Source: Streptomyces sp. ML-6
GTDB taxonomy: Bacteria > Actinomycetota > Actinomycetes > Streptomycetales > Streptomycetaceae
Reading direction: 5' to 3'
Assembly (NCBI RefSeq): GCF_030116705.1
Contig: NZ_JAOTIK010000001.1
Span: 7,034,501-7,098,500, forward strand
Length of the DNA stretch: 64,000 bases
Under the pieces are notes generated by a model. That model saw only the letters and a program-made list of their open reading frames with translations, did no database searches and was not told the origin of the DNA. Positions 11,900 through 19,785 of the stretch are shown here, in pieces; within the stretch, counting starts at the first letter, position 1; every line of letters begins with the position of its first letter. The position numbers and the translations under genes were made by a program.

Positions 11900-12790
11900 T
11901 CAGGCCCGTCCGGGGAGGGACGGCGGCGACGACGCCGGTATCCGCTCCAGCACACCGCCCGCGAAGACGTCGTACAGCGGCAGCGTCTCCAGATGCACGT
12001 ACCCGATGTGGCAGTCGCAGACCGCCAGCGGACAGGCCCGCGGCCCGAGCGCCCGCCGGTAGCTCCCGTCGTAGAGGTTGCCGAGTTCCGCCGGTACGAA
12101 GTGGCAGCGCCGCACGGTGCCCTCCCCGTCCACCGAGACGACCGACTCACCGGTCCGGCAGGGCAGCCCCGCCGACCGGTGCGGATGCCGGCTGTACGGG
12201 AAGAGCGGGTCGACGGCCGTCCAGCGGTCCGCCTCCTCGTCCGTATAGGTGTGGCCCTCCGCGGCGTTCACCCACAGGTAGACCTCGTCCGGCAGCGCGG
12301 CCCGCAGCCGCCGGGCCTCCGCCAGGTGCTCGTCGAGCCCGACGATCCCGACGCTGTACCGGACGCCCAGCGCGGTCAGCTCCCGGCACTTGCCGAGGAA
12401 CCTCTCGTACGGCGTCTGCCCCGGGTGGTACGTGCACCAGAGCGCGATCTTCTCGCGGTCGGTCCCGTCCGCCTCGGCCAGCCAGCCCGTACGGCTGCTG
12501 AGGTTGGTCTGGATCGCGACCCGGCGGACCTGCGGCAGCCGCGCCAGCTCGACCAGCGCCCGGCGGTACCAGGAACGGACCAGGCCCTCGCCCCACGGCG
12601 TGAACAGCACCGAGAGCCGGTCGCCGGTCTGCGCCGCGGCCCACGCCGTGAACCGCTCCAGGGCGGCGCGGTCGGCGCGCAGCTGCTCCCGGCTGTCGCG
12701 CCGCTTGGCGAACGGGCAGTACGGGCAGTCGTAGTCGCACGAGGAGAGCGGGCCGCGGTAGAGGATGGTCAGGTCCATGGACGCGCTCAC
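11900..12790 (-). CDS. STM4011-family radical SAM protein
   Basis: This is the last gene of the STM40xx operon. The radical-SAM motif CDYDCPYC (CX3CX2C) lies near the N-terminus at residues 18-25 from the GTG at 12790. C-terminal cysteines (PCRTGESVVSVDGEGTVRRCHF and CPLAVCDCHIGY) look like a SPASM-type auxiliary iron-sulfur region, as in enzymes that modify peptides or proteins. The GTG at 12790 overlaps the upstream stop by 4 bp (GTGA); ATG 12778 is the alternative. The reaction is unknown. Family naming (STM4011, after the Salmonella gene) is from memory of annotation pipelines. Confidence 0.87.
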   Translation of the reverse strand: MSASMDLTILYRGPLSSCDYDCPYCPFAKRRDSREQLRADRAALERFTAWAAAQTGDRLSVLFTPWGEGLVRSWYRRALVELARLPQVRRVAIQTNLSSRTGWLAEADGTDREKIALWCTYHPGQTPYERFLGKCRELTALGVRYSVGIVGLDEHLAEARRLRAALPDEVYLWVNAAEGHTYTDEEADRWTAVDPLFPYSRHPHRSAGLPCRTGESVVSVDGEGTVRRCHFVPAELGNLYDGSYRRALGPRACPLAVCDCHIGYVHLETLPLYDVFAGGVLERIPASSPPSLPGRA

Positions 12791-14151
12791 TTCAATTCGT
12801 ACGCGGCCATCGCGGCCCGTACACCGGGGGAGAAGAGCTCGGGACCCAGGGCGTCGGAGTGGGCCAGGCCCTCGGGGGAGAGCCGCAGCAGCCCGGCTCC
12901 GCCGGCCGACGCGTCGAGCCAGCCGCGGGCCTCGAAGCGGGCCAGCTCGGCGGGGAAGTCGTCGGCGGGCGAGGTGCCGAACCGCTCCCGGTAGTCGTCG
13001 ATCCGCAGCCCCTCGGCCTGGAGGACCGACTGCAGGAGGTGACGGCGACGGGCCTCGTCGCCGTCGACGTACCGGCCGACCTCGGCGCGCGAGAAGTCCT
13101 CGGTGGCGGTGTAGCCGTCGATGATCGCCCGCACCTCCCGCATCTCCACCGCGTAGTCGAAGGAGTAGTGCAGCTCCGTGGTGTACGAACGGGCCCCGCA
13201 CCCCAGGCCGATCATCCCGTCGGTCTGGCAGGCGTGGTCGTCCGGGCCGTCCGTGCGCGGGGCGTCGGCACGGCGGAACATCCGCATCGAGACCTGCTCG
13301 TACCCGTGGGCCAGGAGATGGTCCCGGCCCGCGCGGTACAGCCGCAGCCGCTGCTCGTCCCAGGCCGCGTCCGCCGCCGCCTCGCCGTCGGCGCCGAGCC
13401 GCCCCAGACCGGTCAGCGGGCGCACGTACAACGGGTAGAGGTACAGCTCCTCCGGCCGCCGGCCGAGCGCCGCGTCCAGCGAGGTGCGCCAGCTGTCCTC
13501 GGTCTGGCCGTCGATGCCGTAGATCAGGTCGATGTTGAGGACCGGGAACCCGGCGTCGCGGATCCGGTCGAGCGCCGCCTCCACGTCGGCACGGCGCTGC
13601 GGGCGCACGGCGGCGCGCGCCTCGGCCTCGACGAAGCTCTGCACCCCGATGCTGATCCTGGTCGCGCCCCGGTCCGCCAGGACGGCCAGCCGGTCGGCGG
13701 TCGCGGTCGACGGCGACGTCTCGACCGACAGCGGGACGGAGCGCAGATCGGCGCCCATCCGCTTCTCCGCGATGTCGCAGAGCCGGTCCAGCTCCGCCGC
13801 CGTCAGGAACGTGGGCGTGCCCCCGCCGAACGCGGCCGCCGCGAAACGCACCGGCTCGGCGTCGCCCAGCGCCTCCCGGACGGCCACGGCCTGCCGGTCC
13901 AGCGCATCGAGATAACGGGTCGTCAGCTCGTCGGGCGCGCCGATCCTGGTGAAGAGGTTGCAGAAGCCGCAGCGGACCTCGCAGAAGGGTATGTGGAGAT
14001 AGAGCGAGAGCGCGTCCCGGCGCTCGCCCGCCCACAGCTCGCGCAGCTCCGGCCGGTCGGCGAGCGGCCGGTAGGCGGTCTTGTGCGGGTAGGCGTAGAC
14101 GTAGCTTTGATACGGGCGGACGGCCGGTGCGGTGGTCGTGGTGCGGCTCAT
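12787..14151 (-). CDS. STM4012-family radical SAM protein (HemN-like)
   Basis: The 454-residue protein resembles coproporphyrinogen-III-oxidase-type radical-SAM enzymes. It has LYLHIPFCEVRCGFCNLFT (CX3CX2C at about residues 58-65), FGGGTPTFL, the SVETSPSTAT segment, GVQSF and LIYGIDGQTEDSW. HemN relatives include porphyrin enzymes, haem chaperones and methyltransferases, so HemN-likeness alone does not define function; its place beside STM4011 argues for the uncharacterised STM4012 family. Its ATG overlaps the STM4013 stop and its own stop overlaps the STM4011 start, both by 4 bp, implying near-stoichiometric synthesis. Confidence 0.88.
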   Translation of the reverse strand: MSRTTTTAPAVRPYQSYVYAYPHKTAYRPLADRPELRELWAGERRDALSLYLHIPFCEVRCGFCNLFTRIGAPDELTTRYLDALDRQAVAVREALGDAEPVRFAAAAFGGGTPTFLTAAELDRLCDIAEKRMGADLRSVPLSVETSPSTATADRLAVLADRGATRISIGVQSFVEAEARAAVRPQRRADVEAALDRIRDAGFPVLNIDLIYGIDGQTEDSWRTSLDAALGRRPEELYLYPLYVRPLTGLGRLGADGEAAADAAWDEQRLRLYRAGRDHLLAHGYEQVSMRMFRRADAPRTDGPDDHACQTDGMIGLGCGARSYTTELHYSFDYAVEMREVRAIIDGYTATEDFSRAEVGRYVDGDEARRRHLLQSVLQAEGLRIDDYRERFGTSPADDFPAELARFEARGWLDASAGGAGLLRLSPEGLAHSDALGPELFSPGVRAAMAAYELK

Positions 14152-15035
14152 GGTGCGGTGGCCCCCGGTTCCAGGAAGAAGTGCGCGTACGGAACGGTCC
14201 AGACGGACTCGTGCCCGAGCCGGTGACCGGTGTAGCCGTCGTCCCCGTATGCCGTGCCGTGGTCGGAGCACACGATGGCGAAGCAGCGGCGACGGCTGCT
14301 CGCGGCGGCGAAGAGCCGGCCGATGTGGGCGTCGACGTACTCCAGGGCGGCGGCGTGGGTGGCGCGGGAGTCGCCCGCCTCGCGGGTGGCTCCCGGCCGG
14401 TGGAACCAGTTGGGCTGGTGCAGGGCGGACACGTTCACGAAGAGGAACAGCCGCTGCTCGGCCGGGAGCCCGGCCACGACCTGCTCGGCGCGGGCGACCT
14501 GCGCCTCGAAGGAGGTGGGCGACGCCACGCCGAACTCCGGTTCCCAGTGGCTCTCCTGGAACATGTCCGGCAGCACGGAACCGAGCGGCGGCTGCCGGTT
14601 GAAGAAACCGACCCCGCCGATGCACACCGTGCGGTAGCCCACGTCGGCGAGGGCGGACATCAGGTCCGGCCGGTCGAAGACGAAGGTGCCCGACGCGGTG
14701 GACTCACTGCCGGCGAAACGCGCCGCGAACAGCCGGGGATGCGGCCCGGGACCGGCCGGGGTCGGCAGGAAGCCCGCGAAGATCGCCTGGTGGGACGCGT
14801 AGGTGAAACTGCCCGGCGCGTGGCGTTTCTCCCAGACCCCGCCCGGCAGATGGCGCGCCAGGTTCGGGATGCGCCCCGCGGCGGCGAGCTCCACCGCCAC
14901 GTCGTGGCGCAGCGTGTCGAGGGTGACGAGCAGCAGATCGTGGCTGCCCACGATCTCGCTCATGTCCGGTTCGCCCGTGTCCGGGGGCGGGGTGGCCGAG
15001 GGGGCGGGCGCGGTGTCAGGCGGTGGCGGTTGCAC
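14148..15035 (-). CDS. STM4013-family hydrolase (alkaline phosphatase/sulfatase fold)
   Basis: A 295-residue member of the alkaline-phosphatase superfamily. LLLVTLDTLRHDVAVE gives the first metal-binding Asp, and CSDHGTAYGDDGYTGHRLGHES carries the second metal cluster (DHG and His). HAPGSFTYASHQAIFAGF supplies the region of the catalytic nucleophile. It probably hydrolyses a phospho- or sulfo-ester, or transfers such a group. No signal peptide is seen, so it should be cytoplasmic. The GTG at 15035 is preferred because AAGGA precedes it and it overlaps the STM4014 stop by 20 bp; ATG 14963 (MSEIVGSHD) is the alternative. Confidence 0.87.
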   Translation of the reverse strand: MQPPPPDTAPAPSATPPPDTGEPDMSEIVGSHDLLLVTLDTLRHDVAVELAAAGRIPNLARHLPGGVWEKRHAPGSFTYASHQAIFAGFLPTPAGPGPHPRLFAARFAGSESTASGTFVFDRPDLMSALADVGYRTVCIGGVGFFNRQPPLGSVLPDMFQESHWEPEFGVASPTSFEAQVARAEQVVAGLPAEQRLFLFVNVSALHQPNWFHRPGATREAGDSRATHAAALEYVDAHIGRLFAAASSRRRCFAIVCSDHGTAYGDDGYTGHRLGHESVWTVPYAHFFLEPGATAP

Positions 15036-16170
15036 GGTGGTTCCTTGCTCTGTTCTGTACGGCGGCGACCTGCGCCGCGTAGGTGTCCAGTCCCTCGACG
15101 CCGCTGCCGGGGAGTCCGGTCAGCCGCGGCAGCAGGTCGCCGAAGGCGTTGACCTCCCCGACGGCGAAGCGCCGCCAGTCGGTCGAGGGCAGCAGATCGA
15201 CGCCCACGCACAGCGTGTCCGGGAAACACGCCGCCGCCCGCTCGCACACGGCCAGGGCCTCGGCCCAGCTGCCGCCCGCGGCCGCGACGGCCTCCCGGAC
15301 CTCGTCGAGGCTTCCGCGTTCGCCGCCGAGGTGAAGATTGGTCATGGGGGACCTGCTGGTACGCACGACGGCATGGGTGGCCCTGCCCGCCACCACCACG
15401 ACCCGCAGGTCCGTCGCCCGGCCGCGCCGGGTCGCCTTGGGCAGCCAGCGCTCGATGTGCAGCCCGTCGGGCGCCAGCGCGTCGACGATCGCGGCGACCT
15501 CCGGTTCCGTCGTGCAGCGGCGCACCCGCAACGAGTTGAACAGCCGGCCGGAGGCGTCCCGCTCCACCGAGGTGGTGGCCCTGATCCGGCCGGGCCCGGC
15601 CGTCTCCACGGCCAGGACCCCCGAGGCGGACGAACCGTGCGCGAGCTTCACGAAGACCCGGGGCGTGCCCAGGGCCGCCATCCGCTCGCGCACGTCCGCC
15701 CAGTCCCGCACCACCGGCGCCGCGGCGCCCGAGGTCGGCGACGCCGGGACGGGCACACCGGCGCCGTCCAGCACGGCATGGCAGAGCCGCTTGTCGAACA
15801 GCACCGCGGCCTCGTCGGGATCGTCGAGCAGTACGGCCCCGGCGGCGTCCGCCGCCCGCCCCACCGCCCGGACGGCTTCGGTGAACCGGGCGTACCAGAG
15901 CGCGGTCCCCTCGACCCGGGTCGGATCGTCGACCGCCCTGAGCAGCCGCTCCACCTCGGCGTCCTCGCCGGGCGAGTCCATCCGCACGGTCTCGCCCGGA
16001 CGGAAGGCCGCCGCGCCGCGCAGGACGTCCAGCCAGGGCACGACGCGCGCCGTCGGCAGCCCGGCGGCGCGCACGGCGTCCTGGAAGAACGCGACCCGGC
16101 GGTTGCCGGGCACACCCACGACGGCGAAGCGCGGCGCCGGACCGGGCGCGCTATTCGCTGACGGCGACAT
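15016..16170 (-). CDS. STM4014-family ATP-grasp protein
   Basis: The 384-residue protein reads as an ATP-grasp ligase. It has an N-terminal Rossmann-like part (FAVVGVPGNRRVAFFQDAV), a lysine-containing ATP-binding strand (RVFVKLAHGSSASGVLAVE), IERWLPKATRRGRATDLRVVVVAGRATHAVVR, and a C-terminal metal/ATP segment (VGVDLLPSTDWRRFAVGEVNAFGDLLP). ATP-grasp enzymes activate carboxylates to form peptide or amide bonds. It overlaps neighbours by 20 bp on both sides. In this operon it could ligate an amino acid or peptide made or modified by the radical-SAM partners; that is inference. Confidence 0.86.
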   Translation of the reverse strand: MSPSANSAPGPAPRFAVVGVPGNRRVAFFQDAVRAAGLPTARVVPWLDVLRGAAAFRPGETVRMDSPGEDAEVERLLRAVDDPTRVEGTALWYARFTEAVRAVGRAADAAGAVLLDDPDEAAVLFDKRLCHAVLDGAGVPVPASPTSGAAAPVVRDWADVRERMAALGTPRVFVKLAHGSSASGVLAVETAGPGRIRATTSVERDASGRLFNSLRVRRCTTEPEVAAIVDALAPDGLHIERWLPKATRRGRATDLRVVVVAGRATHAVVRTSRSPMTNLHLGGERGSLDEVREAVAAAGGSWAEALAVCERAAACFPDTLCVGVDLLPSTDWRRFAVGEVNAFGDLLPRLTGLPGSGVEGLDTYAAQVAAVQNRARNHRATATA

Positions 16171-17122
16171 AGCGGTGCTCGTCCTCTTCCGGGTCCCAGT
16201 ACTCGACCTCGTCGAGCTCGGTGTTCACCCGGTCGGGACCCAGCAGGTCCCGCAGGCGCTCCACCAGCGGGGCGCCGATGTAGTGGTGGTGCAGATCCAG
16301 CGAGGCCAGATGGGTGAGGGGCTGGCCCGAGAGCAGCGCCTGCGCTCCTTCGTCGCCCAGGGTGCCCATCGCGAGGGAGAGCGACTCCAGCCGGGCGACG
16401 ACCGGCGCGGAGGCGACCGCCGCCGCGATCTCGTCCTGGATCTCGCTGTTCTGCAGCCCCAGATGGCGCAGGGCGGGGAACGCCGCCCCGGACAGCAGCG
16501 GAGAGAGGTCCGCGACCGTCGTGTCGCCGCCGTACTCGGTGACGCCCAGCCAGAGGTCGAGGTGCTCCAGCGCGGGCAGCTCCGACGCCCCGACCGCCCG
16601 CACGATCCCGGCCGGCAGCCCGCCGGACTCGAACCGCAGCGACTTGAGCGCCGGGTGCCGAACCGGCCGCAGGGCGAGGACCTCCCGGTCGTCGAACGAG
16701 TCGCCGCAGCCGCGCACCGTCAGCTCCTCCAGCTGCCCGAACGCCTCGACCACCGGGGTGATGTCGCACATCTCGAGCCACGACAGCTCGCACTCCTCAC
16801 CGACCACATCGGCGAGGAAGAGCGCCCGCAGGGCCGGGAACCGGTCGGCGTGGCCGGTCAGCAGCTCGACGACGGGGGCGAAGTTCTCGTACTCCTCCTG
16901 CCACCAGGGGCCGATCAGCAGGGCCCGCACCCGTGTCGTGTCGACCGTGTCGACGAAGTGCTGCCACAGCGCGCCGAAGGTCAGGTCGCCCTGCCAGGCG
17001 CTCTCCAGCCGCCACGCCACCGAGCCGGCGTCCGGGAGAGGGGCCTCGGAGGCGCGGTCAGGACCGGGCAGGGTGAGGACGGGCAGGCCGTGGAACGTTT
17101 CGGGGTGGTCGATGTCCGACAC
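16151..17122 (-). CDS. STM4015-family leucine-rich-repeat protein, copy A
   Basis: A 323-residue acidic protein with irregular leucine-rich repeats through its middle (PALKSLRFESGGLP, PALEHLDLWLGV, PALRHLGLQNSEI, ARLESLSLAMGTLGDEGAQALL, THLASLDLHHHYIG). No catalytic residues are visible, so a scaffold or substrate role is likely. It starts with GTG at 17122, 9 bases after GGAG and 6 bp after copy B's stop. The N-terminal FHGLPVLTL and the C-terminal RYVAVSE are shared in form with copy B. It is adjacent to the ATP-grasp gene with a 20-bp overlap. Confidence 0.85.
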   Translation of the reverse strand: MSDIDHPETFHGLPVLTLPGPDRASEAPLPDAGSVAWRLESAWQGDLTFGALWQHFVDTVDTTRVRALLIGPWWQEEYENFAPVVELLTGHADRFPALRALFLADVVGEECELSWLEMCDITPVVEAFGQLEELTVRGCGDSFDDREVLALRPVRHPALKSLRFESGGLPAGIVRAVGASELPALEHLDLWLGVTEYGGDTTVADLSPLLSGAAFPALRHLGLQNSEIQDEIAAAVASAPVVARLESLSLAMGTLGDEGAQALLSGQPLTHLASLDLHHHYIGAPLVERLRDLLGPDRVNTELDEVEYWDPEEDEHRYVAVSE

Positions 17123-17128
17123 CGCGCA

Positions 17129-18079
17129 TCACTCCGCGACCGAGGTGTAACGGCCCTCGGCGCCGCGGTCGCCCCAGGGCTTGTTGCGTTCCGACACGTC
17201 GACCCGCACGCCGTGCGGTTCCAGCGCCTCCGTGACCCGGCGCTCCATCGGCTCGGTCATGAAGTGGTGGTGCAGATCGAGCCGTTCGAGATGGGTGAGG
17301 GGCTGGCCGTCCAGCAGCGCCGCCGCGCCCTCGTCGCCCAGCGTGCCGTTGGACAGGTCGAGGACCCGGAGCTGCGCGACGACCGGGGCACTGGCGACGG
17401 CCGAGGCGATCTCGTTCTGCAACTCGCTGTTGCGCAGGCCGAGATGGGTGAGCCGGGGGAAGCGGGTGCCGGAGAGCAGCGGGGCGAGGTCCGCCACATC
17501 GGCGTCGCCGCCGTACGCGGACACGCCGAGCCAGAGGTCGAGCCGCTCCAGCGCGGGCAGCTCACTGTCCAGGATGCCGCGGATCACACTGACCGGCAGG
17601 CCCCCGGTCTCGATGGTCAGCGCGCTCAGCCGCTCGTGCTTCGAGGGCGTGAAGACCAGCTCCGAACCACCGCGCACCCCCAGTTCGGCCAGCTCGGGGA
17701 AGGCCCTGAGCAGCGCCGTGACGTCCGACTGCTCGATCCAGGAGATCTCGCTCTCTTCCATGATCAGGTCGCCGACGAAGACGGCCCGCAGCGAGGTGAA
17801 CCGGTCGGCGGCGGCGATGACCAGGTCGATCGGGTAGGACGACTTCTCCTCGTACGACTCGCCCCACTGGCCGATGATCAGAGCCCGCACCCCGGCCGGG
17901 TCGACCGTCCGCAGGAACGCCTCGAACGCCTCTTCCCAGGTCGTTTCCTCCTCGTACGGTTCCACCGAGATGCGCCAGGCTGCCGCGTCGGCGGCCTGCA
18001 CGGGCGCTTCCTCCGCCGTGTGCTGGAACTGGACGACGGGAAGGCCGAAAAACTCGTGCAGATGGTCCACACCGGACAT
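17129..18079 (-). CDS. STM4015-family leucine-rich-repeat protein, copy B (first gene of operon)
   Basis: A 316-residue paralogue of copy A, arranged in tandem. The LRR core is closely similar (PALERLDLWLGVSAYGGD, PRLTHLGLRNSELQNEIASAV, LRVLDLSNGTLGDEGAAALLDGQPLTHLERLDLHHH). ATG 18079 is preferred to an upstream GTG-initiated extension because AGGAG lies 9 bases before it. It begins with EFFGLPVVQF and ends with RYTSVAE, mirroring copy A at both termini while mid-protein surfaces differ. Most STM4015 loci I recall carry one such gene, so this is probably a local duplication. Confidence 0.85.
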   Translation of the reverse strand: MSGVDHLHEFFGLPVVQFQHTAEEAPVQAADAAAWRISVEPYEEETTWEEAFEAFLRTVDPAGVRALIIGQWGESYEEKSSYPIDLVIAAADRFTSLRAVFVGDLIMEESEISWIEQSDVTALLRAFPELAELGVRGGSELVFTPSKHERLSALTIETGGLPVSVIRGILDSELPALERLDLWLGVSAYGGDADVADLAPLLSGTRFPRLTHLGLRNSELQNEIASAVASAPVVAQLRVLDLSNGTLGDEGAAALLDGQPLTHLERLDLHHHFMTEPMERRVTEALEPHGVRVDVSERNKPWGDRGAEGRYTSVAE

Positions 18080-18276: not shown

Positions 18277-18603
18277 GTGTACCGGCAGGGCGATGTACTG
18301 ATCATGTCGTTGGAGGAGTCGGAGGTGCCCGCGCAGCTCCTGGAGGCGCCGGGCGAGCCGCGGGACGGCCGGGGCCGCATGGTCCTCGCGCTGGGCGAGG
18401 TCACCGGCCACGCCCACGCCATCCAGGGGCCGGGCCGACTGATGCGCGAGGCGGGGGCCTTCGGGCCGATGCTGCTCCATCTCCCCGAGGGCGGACGGGT
18501 GGTGCACGAGGAGCACGCGACGATACCGCTGCCGAAGGGCTGGTACCGGGTGGTGCGCCAGCGGGAGTACGCGCCGGGAGCGGTCCGCATCGTCGCGGAC
18601 TGA
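18277..18603 (+). CDS. Conserved hypothetical protein, paired with DUF6745 gene
   Basis: A 108-residue protein with no signal peptide or membrane segment; I do not recognise its family. GTG 18277 is supported by GAGGGGAG ending 7 bases upstream. It begins YRQGDVLIMSLEE and contains a histidine-rich GEVTGHAHAIQGP and LPKGWYRVVRQREYAPG, which look like a small all-beta fold. Good codon bias shows it is real. It precedes the DUF6745 gene on the same strand, 180 bp away, and probably forms a unit with it. Confidence 0.82.
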   Translation: MYRQGDVLIMSLEESEVPAQLLEAPGEPRDGRGRMVLALGEVTGHAHAIQGPGRLMREAGAFGPMLLHLPEGGRVVHEEHATIPLPKGWYRVVRQREYAPGAVRIVAD

Positions 18604-18726
18604 CGCGCCGGAGCACGGTTCGGGGCACGGCGGCACACCGGATCACCGCAGCGCGCCGAGCCTCACGCACCACGAACAAGAGGACGCTCCGTGCGCAGCC
18701 GCTGCGCACGGACGCACAGACACACC

Positions 18727-18757
18727 AATACGCGAACAACGCGAACAACGCGAACAC
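18727..18757 (+). repeat. Short tandem AACAACGCG repeat
   Basis: The gap between the 108-residue protein gene and the DUF6745 gene contains a short AT-richer tandem (CGCGAACAA units, two to three copies) immediately before the ribosome site region of the downstream gene. No function is apparent. Confidence 0.5.
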
Positions 18758-18783
18758 ACGGAATCAGGGGACGGGGAAGACCG

Positions 18784-19785
18784 ATGCAGTACGTGGACTC
18801 ATGGCGGACCGTGGCGGCGGCGACGGGCACGGCGGACCGGGCCGCGGCCGAGGACGGGCTGCGGCTCGCCTACCGCAGCGCGGGGCTCGCCGAGCCGGAG
18901 CGGATCGTCTGGGTCGAATCGCCCCGGGCAGCGGTGGAGGCCGTCGAGAAGCTGGTGGACGCCGGCCGCTCGGTGCGCGAGGAGGTGCGGACCCGGCCCT
19001 GGGCGCAGGAGCGCCGCCGGATGTACGACGAACTGGGCCCGGCGGGCTGGTCCGCCCTGTGGTCCGCGACGGGGGCACAGCTGTGGGAGACCACTGCGGC
19101 GCTCGCCGACCGGATCCGGGCCGGGGTCGTCGCGGACCTCGCCAAGCGCCCGGAGGACGAGTCCGATGTCCGGCTGGTGCTGCTCGACGCCGTCCTCGGC
19201 CAGCACGACGCGGCCTGGCTCGCGGCCTTCGACGGCCGGGGCGACCGGCTGAACGGCCTGGCCGAGGTGGCCAGGAACGCGGGCTGGTGGTGGCCCTACG
19301 AGCGTGCCGTGGTGATCAGCGAGCGACCGCAGGCACTGCACCGGGACGAGGCGGGGCGGCTGGACCGGGGGGACGGCCCCGCGCTGGCCTACGCCGACGG
19401 CTTCGCCCTCTATGCCTGGCGCGGCATGCCGGTGCCCGCCGAGTTCCTCGACGAGCTCAACGCGCTGACCCCGAAGCGGATACGCGAGGAGGAGAACGCC
19501 GAACTGCGACGCGTGATGCTGGAGTTCTACGGCTACGACCGCTATCTGAGCGAGTCGGGTGCCGAGCCGGTGCACCGGGACGAGACCGGTGTCCTCTGGC
19601 GGATCGCGTTGGCCGGCGACGAGGACGTGGTGATGGTCGAGGTGGTCAACTCCACCCCGGAGCCGGACGGAACGCACCGCGTCTACTGGCTCCGGGTGCC
19701 GCCGGGCACCCGGACCGCGAAGGAGGGGGTGGCCTGGACCTTCGGGGTCGGGAGCGAGGAGTACGCGCCCCTGCAGCAGACCTGA
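18784..19785 (+). CDS. DUF6745-like protein of unknown function
   Basis: A 333-residue soluble protein. The distinctive segments WWWPYERAVVISERPQALHRDEAGRLDRGDGPALAYADGFALYAWRGMPVP and AEPVHRDETGVLWRI match my memory of the DUF6745 domain, which often sits near LRR or repeat proteins in Streptomyces. No catalytic motif can be named. ATG 18784 is taken because GGGGAAG precedes it and upstream in-frame sequence (threonine/arginine repeats) is low-complexity leader. It ends in a convergent hairpin shared with the TetR gene. Proximity to the STM4015 LRR genes may or may not be meaningful. Confidence 0.8.
   Translation: MQYVDSWRTVAAATGTADRAAAEDGLRLAYRSAGLAEPERIVWVESPRAAVEAVEKLVDAGRSVREEVRTRPWAQERRRMYDELGPAGWSALWSATGAQLWETTAALADRIRAGVVADLAKRPEDESDVRLVLLDAVLGQHDAAWLAAFDGRGDRLNGLAEVARNAGWWWPYERAVVISERPQALHRDEAGRLDRGDGPALAYADGFALYAWRGMPVPAEFLDELNALTPKRIREEENAELRRVMLEFYGYDRYLSESGAEPVHRDETGVLWRIALAGDEDVVMVEVVNSTPEPDGTHRVYWLRVPPGTRTAKEGVAWTFGVGSEEYAPLQQT

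Follow-up and report, generated by a model that had tools for sequence, protein, structure and literature searches.

What do six overlapping genes accomplish together when their families, widespread across phyla, still carry placeholder names? The question is raised by a 64,000-nucleotide stretch of the 9.1 Mb genome of Streptomyces sp. ML-6 (hereafter the window), in which six minus-strand genes at 11900-18079 encode two leucine-rich repeat (LRR) proteins of the STM4015 family followed by STM4014, STM4013, STM4012 and STM4011. Our answer, in which our confidence is evenly balanced, is that STM4015 serves as an LRR carrier or substrate, with STM4014 loading its terminal glutamate and two radical S-adenosylmethionine (SAM) enzymes and a hydrolase processing it.

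The six overlapping genes reported in a preliminary description of the sequence are borne out in coordinates and spacings (+6, -20, -20, -4 and -4 bp in order from 18079 to 11900), and all six proteins exceed the curated NCBIfam cut-offs (275 bits for STM4015, 175 for STM4014, 250 for STM4013, 380 for STM4012 and 200 for STM4011). Two of the overlaps may be small gaps, because the starts of STM4013 (GTG 15035 or ATG 14961) and STM4011 (GTG 12790 or ATG 12778) are uncertain. The features of the operon are:

17129..18079, minus strand: LRR protein 1 (LRR1; STM4015 family), 316 aa, ending in GRYTSVAE; NF038076, 396.6 bits; matches structure 2RA8
17132..17152, minus strand: C-terminal tip of LRR1, RYTSVAE, including the invariant terminal glutamate (Glu316)
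16151..17122, minus strand: LRR protein 2 (LRR2; STM4015 family), 323 aa, ending in HRYVAVSE; 370.9 bits
16154..16174, minus strand: C-terminal tip of LRR2, RYVAVSE, overlapping the start of the STM4014 gene
15016..16170, minus strand: STM4014, apparent RimK/LysX-like ATP-grasp ligase, 384 aa; NCBIfam, 459.7 bits
14148..15035, minus strand: STM4013/SEN3800, hydrolase of the alkaline-phosphatase/sulfatase superfamily; NCBIfam, 420.4 bits; PF00884, 9e-11
12787..14151, minus strand: STM4012, HemN-like radical-SAM protein; NCBIfam, 643.1 bits
11900..12790, minus strand: STM4011, radical-SAM protein; NCBIfam, 413.9 bits

The statement that these families have no assigned function agrees with NCBIfam, which classes STM4013, STM4014 and STM4015 as hypoth_equivalog, STM4011 as a subfamily and STM4012 as an equivalog named only as a family. 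Searches of the open-licence literature returned no described function for the STM4011-STM4015 families, only table entries in two papers, and no paper under 2RA8 or Q64V53.

The terminal glutamate of STM4015

Both LRR proteins of the window end in R-Y-x-x-V-x-E, and a terminal glutamate placed after a variable acidic linker is a new feature of the STM4015 family. Glutamate ends 95 of 96 distinct stop-ended STM4015 open reading frames in a locus sample consisting of the window and L011-L096 (87 loci, 65 from Paenibacillaceae), the sole exception being the N-terminal piece of a split gene (L041) whose matching C-terminal piece ends in glutamate; it also ends 119 of the 120 diverse relatives listed, of 2606 found in a search seeded with STM4015 of Salmonella, Bacteroides and Methylobacterium, the exception being a 222-aa piece with no tail (P0338), and all 120 relatives of LRR1 listed, of 2320. 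In a weighted alignment of 124 proteins and 294 columns, from which the 222-aa piece was left out, the terminal glutamate is conserved in 100% and shares the top information content with 13 other columns; the seven positions preceding it rank 110-196. As a control, the final residues of the other proteins in the locus sample were compared: glutamate ends 82 of 83 STM4015, 8 of 83 STM4014, 2 of 81 STM4013 and 2 of 83 STM4012 proteins, and is not among the eight commonest end residues of 85 STM4011 proteins. The acidic linker varies widely in length (an Escherichia protein, for example, has a run of nine aspartates) and the tip is kept, following the pattern [WY]-R-[YF]-x-x-[VLIM]-[TGS]-Glu in most lineages and differing in Enterobacteriaceae and Bacteroides (MYPMFTE, IYMNAMYTE, WYYPMITE).

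The glutamate is lost where the enzymes are gone. Tails were read for 70 of 71 STM4015 matches in 101 genomes of the same genus (Streptomyces), one fragment in G344 being left out. Glutamate is kept by 63 of 66 stop-ended copies in STM4011-positive genomes, and by none of the three intact copies in G320, G361 and G385, genomes in which neither STM4011 nor STM4014 reaches its cut-off. The copy in G360, a pseudogene, was set aside from this tally, because its reading frame ends short of the tail and its final glutamate is coincidental. On a quick tree of an alignment that excluded the tail, glutamate was lost at least three separate times; the G361 copy, which is 61% identical to a protein that keeps it, is nested among tail-keeping copies and has kept its body. 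A same-genus clade of STM4015-like proteins (L120, L121, L122, L124) has its tail replaced by one of the GPLSY type or similar, and none of their 9-kb loci contains another operon gene. The invariant glutamate narrows the question to one residue and one enzyme, for which the tail losses are a natural control.

STM4014 and its partner enzymes

Eleven residues of STM4014 (K127, K175, E240, K245, D254, R256, R270, T277, N278, D325 and N341) are invariant among 21 sequences and are presumably of the kind that binds ATP and metal in ATP-grasp enzymes. Its five best profile matches in the PDB are the lysine biosynthesis enzyme 1uc8/1uc9 (4e-6 for 1uc8), which we take to be LysX; 3vpd (9e-6), listed as an S6 modification protein; and RimK 5zct/4iwx (1e-4 for 5zct). 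They rank above an inositol-phosphate kinase (2e-3) and above D-Ala ligases (3e-3). STM4014 has the motif R-x-S-x3-[IM]-T-N in common with 1uc8 and NLH in common with RimK. A passage of PMC4431377 places 3vpd in Thermus. From this kinship, STM4014 appears to be a RimK/LysX-like ligase of the group that acts on C-terminal glutamates of proteins: ArgX, a RimK-like homologue of LysX, joins the amino group of its substrate to the gamma-carboxyl of the terminal glutamate of LysW, as described in part of PMC4490483, and part of PMC7343187 describes RimK-dependent C-terminal glutamates on RpsF.

The remaining three enzymes would act beside this ligase. STM4012 contains CX3CX2C at C57/C61/C64 and an invariant C308 (14 sequences), and matches HemN (1olt, 3e-56) over most of its length and NocN (9p2u, 3e-33) over its first two thirds; it scores below the cut-offs of HemN (TIGR00538, 128.9 versus 324.95 bits) and ChuW/HutW, and has CNL where HemN has CGC, the fourth cysteine of the HemN radical-SAM motif (CX3CX2CXC) being absent. 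STM4011 has CX3CX2C at C18/C22/C25 and five further conserved cysteines (211, 229, 253, 258 and 260; 7 sequences), an extra C-terminal set of the SPASM/twitch type that may hold a putative auxiliary cluster, and resembles SkfB (6efn, 1e-4) in its C-terminal part only. The invariant residues of STM4013 include D40, T78, D258, H259 and H271 (14 sequences), and its PDB matches are an arylsulfatase, a phosphodiesterase-pyrophosphatase and a choline sulfatase. Compared with the anti-phage defence models of PADLOC, eight proteins gave a single match, of STM4012 to PDC-M51A (27.7 bits), and none for the other seven.

A SPASM/twitch-like radical-SAM enzyme and an ATP-grasp enzyme beside a protein with a conserved C-terminal peptide would suit a pathway for a ribosomally synthesized and post-translationally modified peptide (RiPP), with STM4015 as a very large precursor whose C-terminal peptide is modified by the radical-SAM pair and the ligase and then cleaved off as a small signal or antibiotic; part of PMC8939145 describes SPASM radical-SAM enzymes as frequent in RiPP loci that have an ATP-grasp enzyme. 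We judge such a precursor improbable: the core families of the annotated loci include neither a protease nor an exporter, the residues within the tail vary, and the six proteins have no Pfam match to a RiPP recognition element (RRE; PqqD-like) at E<=1, a search in which divergent RREs can be missed.

A modification pathway in which the LRR protein is substrate or scaffold, as the preliminary description proposed, agrees with these results and now has a candidate site in the terminal glutamate of STM4015 with a RimK/LysX-like STM4014. We infer a covalent attachment, a substrate, an order of steps and a release as follows: STM4015 would present a flexible acidic linker tipped by the terminal glutamate; STM4014 would activate this residue and attach an amino compound, like ArgX/LysX on LysW, or add amino acids, like RimK on S6; HemN-like STM4012 and SPASM/twitch-like STM4011 would then alter the attached group, or the tail, by radical chemistry, with the LRR body holding it; STM4013 would take off a phosphate- or sulfate-type group; and the group would finally be released, making STM4015 a carrier, or retained, making it a modified LRR protein. 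More specifically, and only tentatively, the LRR protein may be a covalent carrier of a small molecule, the product either leaving as a new cofactor-like compound or remaining bound to the protein as a cofactor. If attachment occurs, the operon would encode a new carrier-protein pathway and supply a substrate for two orphan radical-SAM families.

Several observations weigh against the loading of the glutamate by STM4014. The similarity of the ligase to LysX and RimK is weak (4e-6), and it misses the RimK family cut-off by a wide margin (TIGR00768, 26.3 versus 143.4 bits). No releasing amidase is found among the core families. The samples behind the 95 of 96 reading frames and the end-residue control are mostly from Paenibacillaceae. 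The Fisher value for glutamate retention with and without enzymes (63 of 66 versus 0 of 3, 4e-4) is optimistic, because four of the six losing copies belong to one clade. Loss is also not strictly tied to absence of the operon, since three glutamate-less copies in STM4011-positive genomes (L121, L122 and L130) lie away from it. An STM4015-like protein of a cyanobacterial Calothrix plasmid (L100:2014-3288) keeps the glutamate, and none of the other operon genes lies in the 11 kb that were read there. A Bacteroides plasmid (L015) has no STM4012 and no intact STM4013. Finally, the tip may not be free: in an AlphaFold2 model of LRR1 (mean predicted local distance difference test score, pLDDT, 92.6), the last six residues reach a pLDDT of 87 versus 68 for residues 301-310, and alignment with 2RA8, a structural genomics structure of the STM4015 relative Q64V53 of Bacteroides fragilis, reaches chain residue 357 and model residue 316, so that the tip may lie against the LRR body. 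The 2RA8 protein extends further than LRR1 at the N-terminus, a region that in several relatives holds a WGR domain (PF05406).

Two other explanations draw on this last evidence. The glutamate might be structural, capping the LRR body or packing on it through a salt bridge and retained for stability, as the confidence of the final block and the extent of the 2RA8 alignment, up to the model's final residue, would allow; this is improbable, because copies nested among keepers, such as that of G361, lost the glutamate yet kept the body, and because the linker varies widely in length while the tip stays. Alternatively, STM4015 might be a non-covalent scaffold, the enzymes acting on a free small molecule and the C-terminal carboxylate serving as a handle for STM4014 or another enzyme. 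LRRs are binding folds, the tip resembles many docking motifs in being short and carried on a variable acidic linker, the model places the tip confidently, and loss of the glutamate without the enzymes is equally expected of such docking; yet the interior of a docking motif is usually kept, whereas here the last residue alone is invariant, and STM4014 groups with ligases that use a C-terminal glutamate, so that we consider docking alone rather unlikely.

Retention of the gene set and its neighbours

The preliminary description made its proposal depend on whether the genes are kept together, and they are. All five families score above 100 bits in 83 of the 87 loci; the four remaining loci are L087, where the contig begins inside STM4012, L083, where STM4014 is under the 100-bit threshold, the 8-kb contig L082, where STM4015 and STM4014 are not over it, and the Bacteroides plasmid L015. 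Among the 101 same-genus genomes, STM4015 exceeds its cut-off in 45, STM4011 in 43 and both in 42 (hypergeometric probability 1e-23, with relatedness ignored); STM4014 does so in 42, which include the decayed G360 copy and leave out G322, where the gene is cut by a contig end. STM4015 without STM4011 occurs in G320, G361 and G385, and STM4011 without STM4015 in G310 alone, where STM4011 is truncated. In G360, STM4015, STM4014 and STM4011 contain stops or splits. The decaying remnants of the operon in G360 (L171) and G310 (L132) suggest that the set was lost repeatedly.

The set is present in Actinomycetota, Bacillota, Deinococcota and Pseudomonadota and partly in Bacteroidota, and the order 4015-4014-4013-4012-4011 is found in Streptomyces, Paenibacillus, Deinococcus, Methylobacterium, Salmonella and Escherichia coli. 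STM4011 matched 13 plasmid records in a tblastn search (Streptomyces, Embleya, Nonomuraea, Methylobacterium, Deinococcus, Paenibacillus, Salmonella and Bacteroides), and this same order is seen in the annotated records among them from Methylobacterium, Deinococcus, Paenibacillus and Salmonella. Distribution is patchy: in Actinomycetota, STM4015 exceeds its cut-off in 6 of 296 genomes and STM4011 in the same 6. A scan of GTDB species genomes, of whose 527 confirmed relatives 80 were kept, is skewed because 65 of the 80 are Paenibacillaceae. Of 5426 complete E. coli genomes, 154 contain the STM4014-4011 stretch, with about 68% DNA identity to that of Salmonella; a near-identity search found none. 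In an E. coli probiotic strain ompL and typA flank the set, whose STM4015 has the terminal glutamate. STM4015-like stretches also occur in five Salmonella and Escherichia records of a phage collection (H29-H33, one of 156 kb), possibly as host DNA.

The tandem LRR pair of the preliminary description stands in the window and is a feature of lineages, many loci having a single copy. LRR1 and LRR2 are 49% identical and fall in separate clades of the tree; other tandem pairs are found in Deinococcus (L012) and G204 (L133), and the two L133 copies group together, so that tandem duplications look to have arisen repeatedly. The six-gene extent likewise holds in the window, but in many genomes the system is wider (18277-19785 in the window), including a divergent pair of genes:

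18277..18603, plus strand: protein of about 108 aa, divergent from the operon; PHROG 27831, 1e-11; frequent partner of DUF6745
18691..19785, plus strand: DUF6745 protein (PF20530), 391 bits; start GTG 18691 or ATG 18784

This pair adjoins the set in Methylobacterium and Deinococcus, as it does in the window, and in all 12 actinobacterial loci of the GTDB scan that have an upstream flank (L082 is too short); it is not at L016, L133 or L134. Strong DUF6745 copies (E <1e-100) occur in 35 of the 101 same-genus genomes, all 35 with STM4011 and STM4015; eight of the 43 STM4011-positive genomes have no strong copy, and G316, G334, G341 and G360 have only weaker copies over the Pfam cut-off. L115, and weakly L117 and L119, have the pair but not the set; it is therefore a frequent partner and not part of the core. 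All 13 distinct stop-ended copies of its protein of about 100 aa terminate in V-x-D.

On the other side of the set, a gene resembling adenylyl-sulfate kinase follows STM4011 in 23 of the 65 Paenibacillaceae loci (for example, L074:10912-11442), within 84 bp in 19 and at 279-563 bp in 4; its identity was checked against NCBIfam in three of the 23. Salmonella and E. coli have a Cof-type HAD phosphatase, encoded separately, after STM4011, and in the Bacteroides plasmid STM4011 is fused to a C-terminal HAD-like domain (L015:7965-9530) that is below family cut-offs. The kinase-like and HAD neighbours hint at a phosphorylated or sulfated intermediate in the pathway.

Comparison with known systems

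STM4012 aligns with HemN and with NocN, among the HemN-like methyltransferases (ChuW/HutW, NocN), and differs from HemN and ChuW/HutW in scoring under their cut-offs, in lacking the fourth HemN motif cysteine and in its extra invariant Cys308. STM4011 resembles, in its C-terminal part, the SPASM/twitch radical-SAM enzyme SkfB of RiPP pathways; unlike these pathways, the STM4011-STM4015 core has no RRE recognised by Pfam at E<=1 and no protease or exporter, and its candidate substrate is a large folded protein. STM4014 appears to belong to the same ATP-grasp subgroup as RimK, which acts on the C-terminal glutamate of S6 (RpsF) according to part of PMC7343187, whereas its presumed partner, an LRR protein, is encoded in its own operon, the RimK cut-off is missed and radical-SAM enzymes are present.

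The carrier systems of LysW with LysX or ArgX likewise combine a RimK-like ATP-grasp enzyme that has conserved ligase residues with a protein partner ending in an invariant glutamate. LysW has an acidic tail. The kinase, reductase, aminotransferase and releasing peptidase of the LysW pathway (LysZ, LysY, LysJ and LysK) are not annotated beside the operon in L011-L014 and L172, where no search with models was made. The terminal glutamate of LysW, as described in part of PMC4490483, matches the glutamate that follows acidic residues in STM4015. In contrast to the small LysW type, the carrier here would be an LRR protein of about 300 aa, accompanied by two radical-SAM enzymes and a hydrolase of the phosphatase/sulfatase fold; if the LRR protein is indeed a carrier, carrier-protein logic would extend to a fold unrelated to LysW and to acyl or peptidyl carriers.

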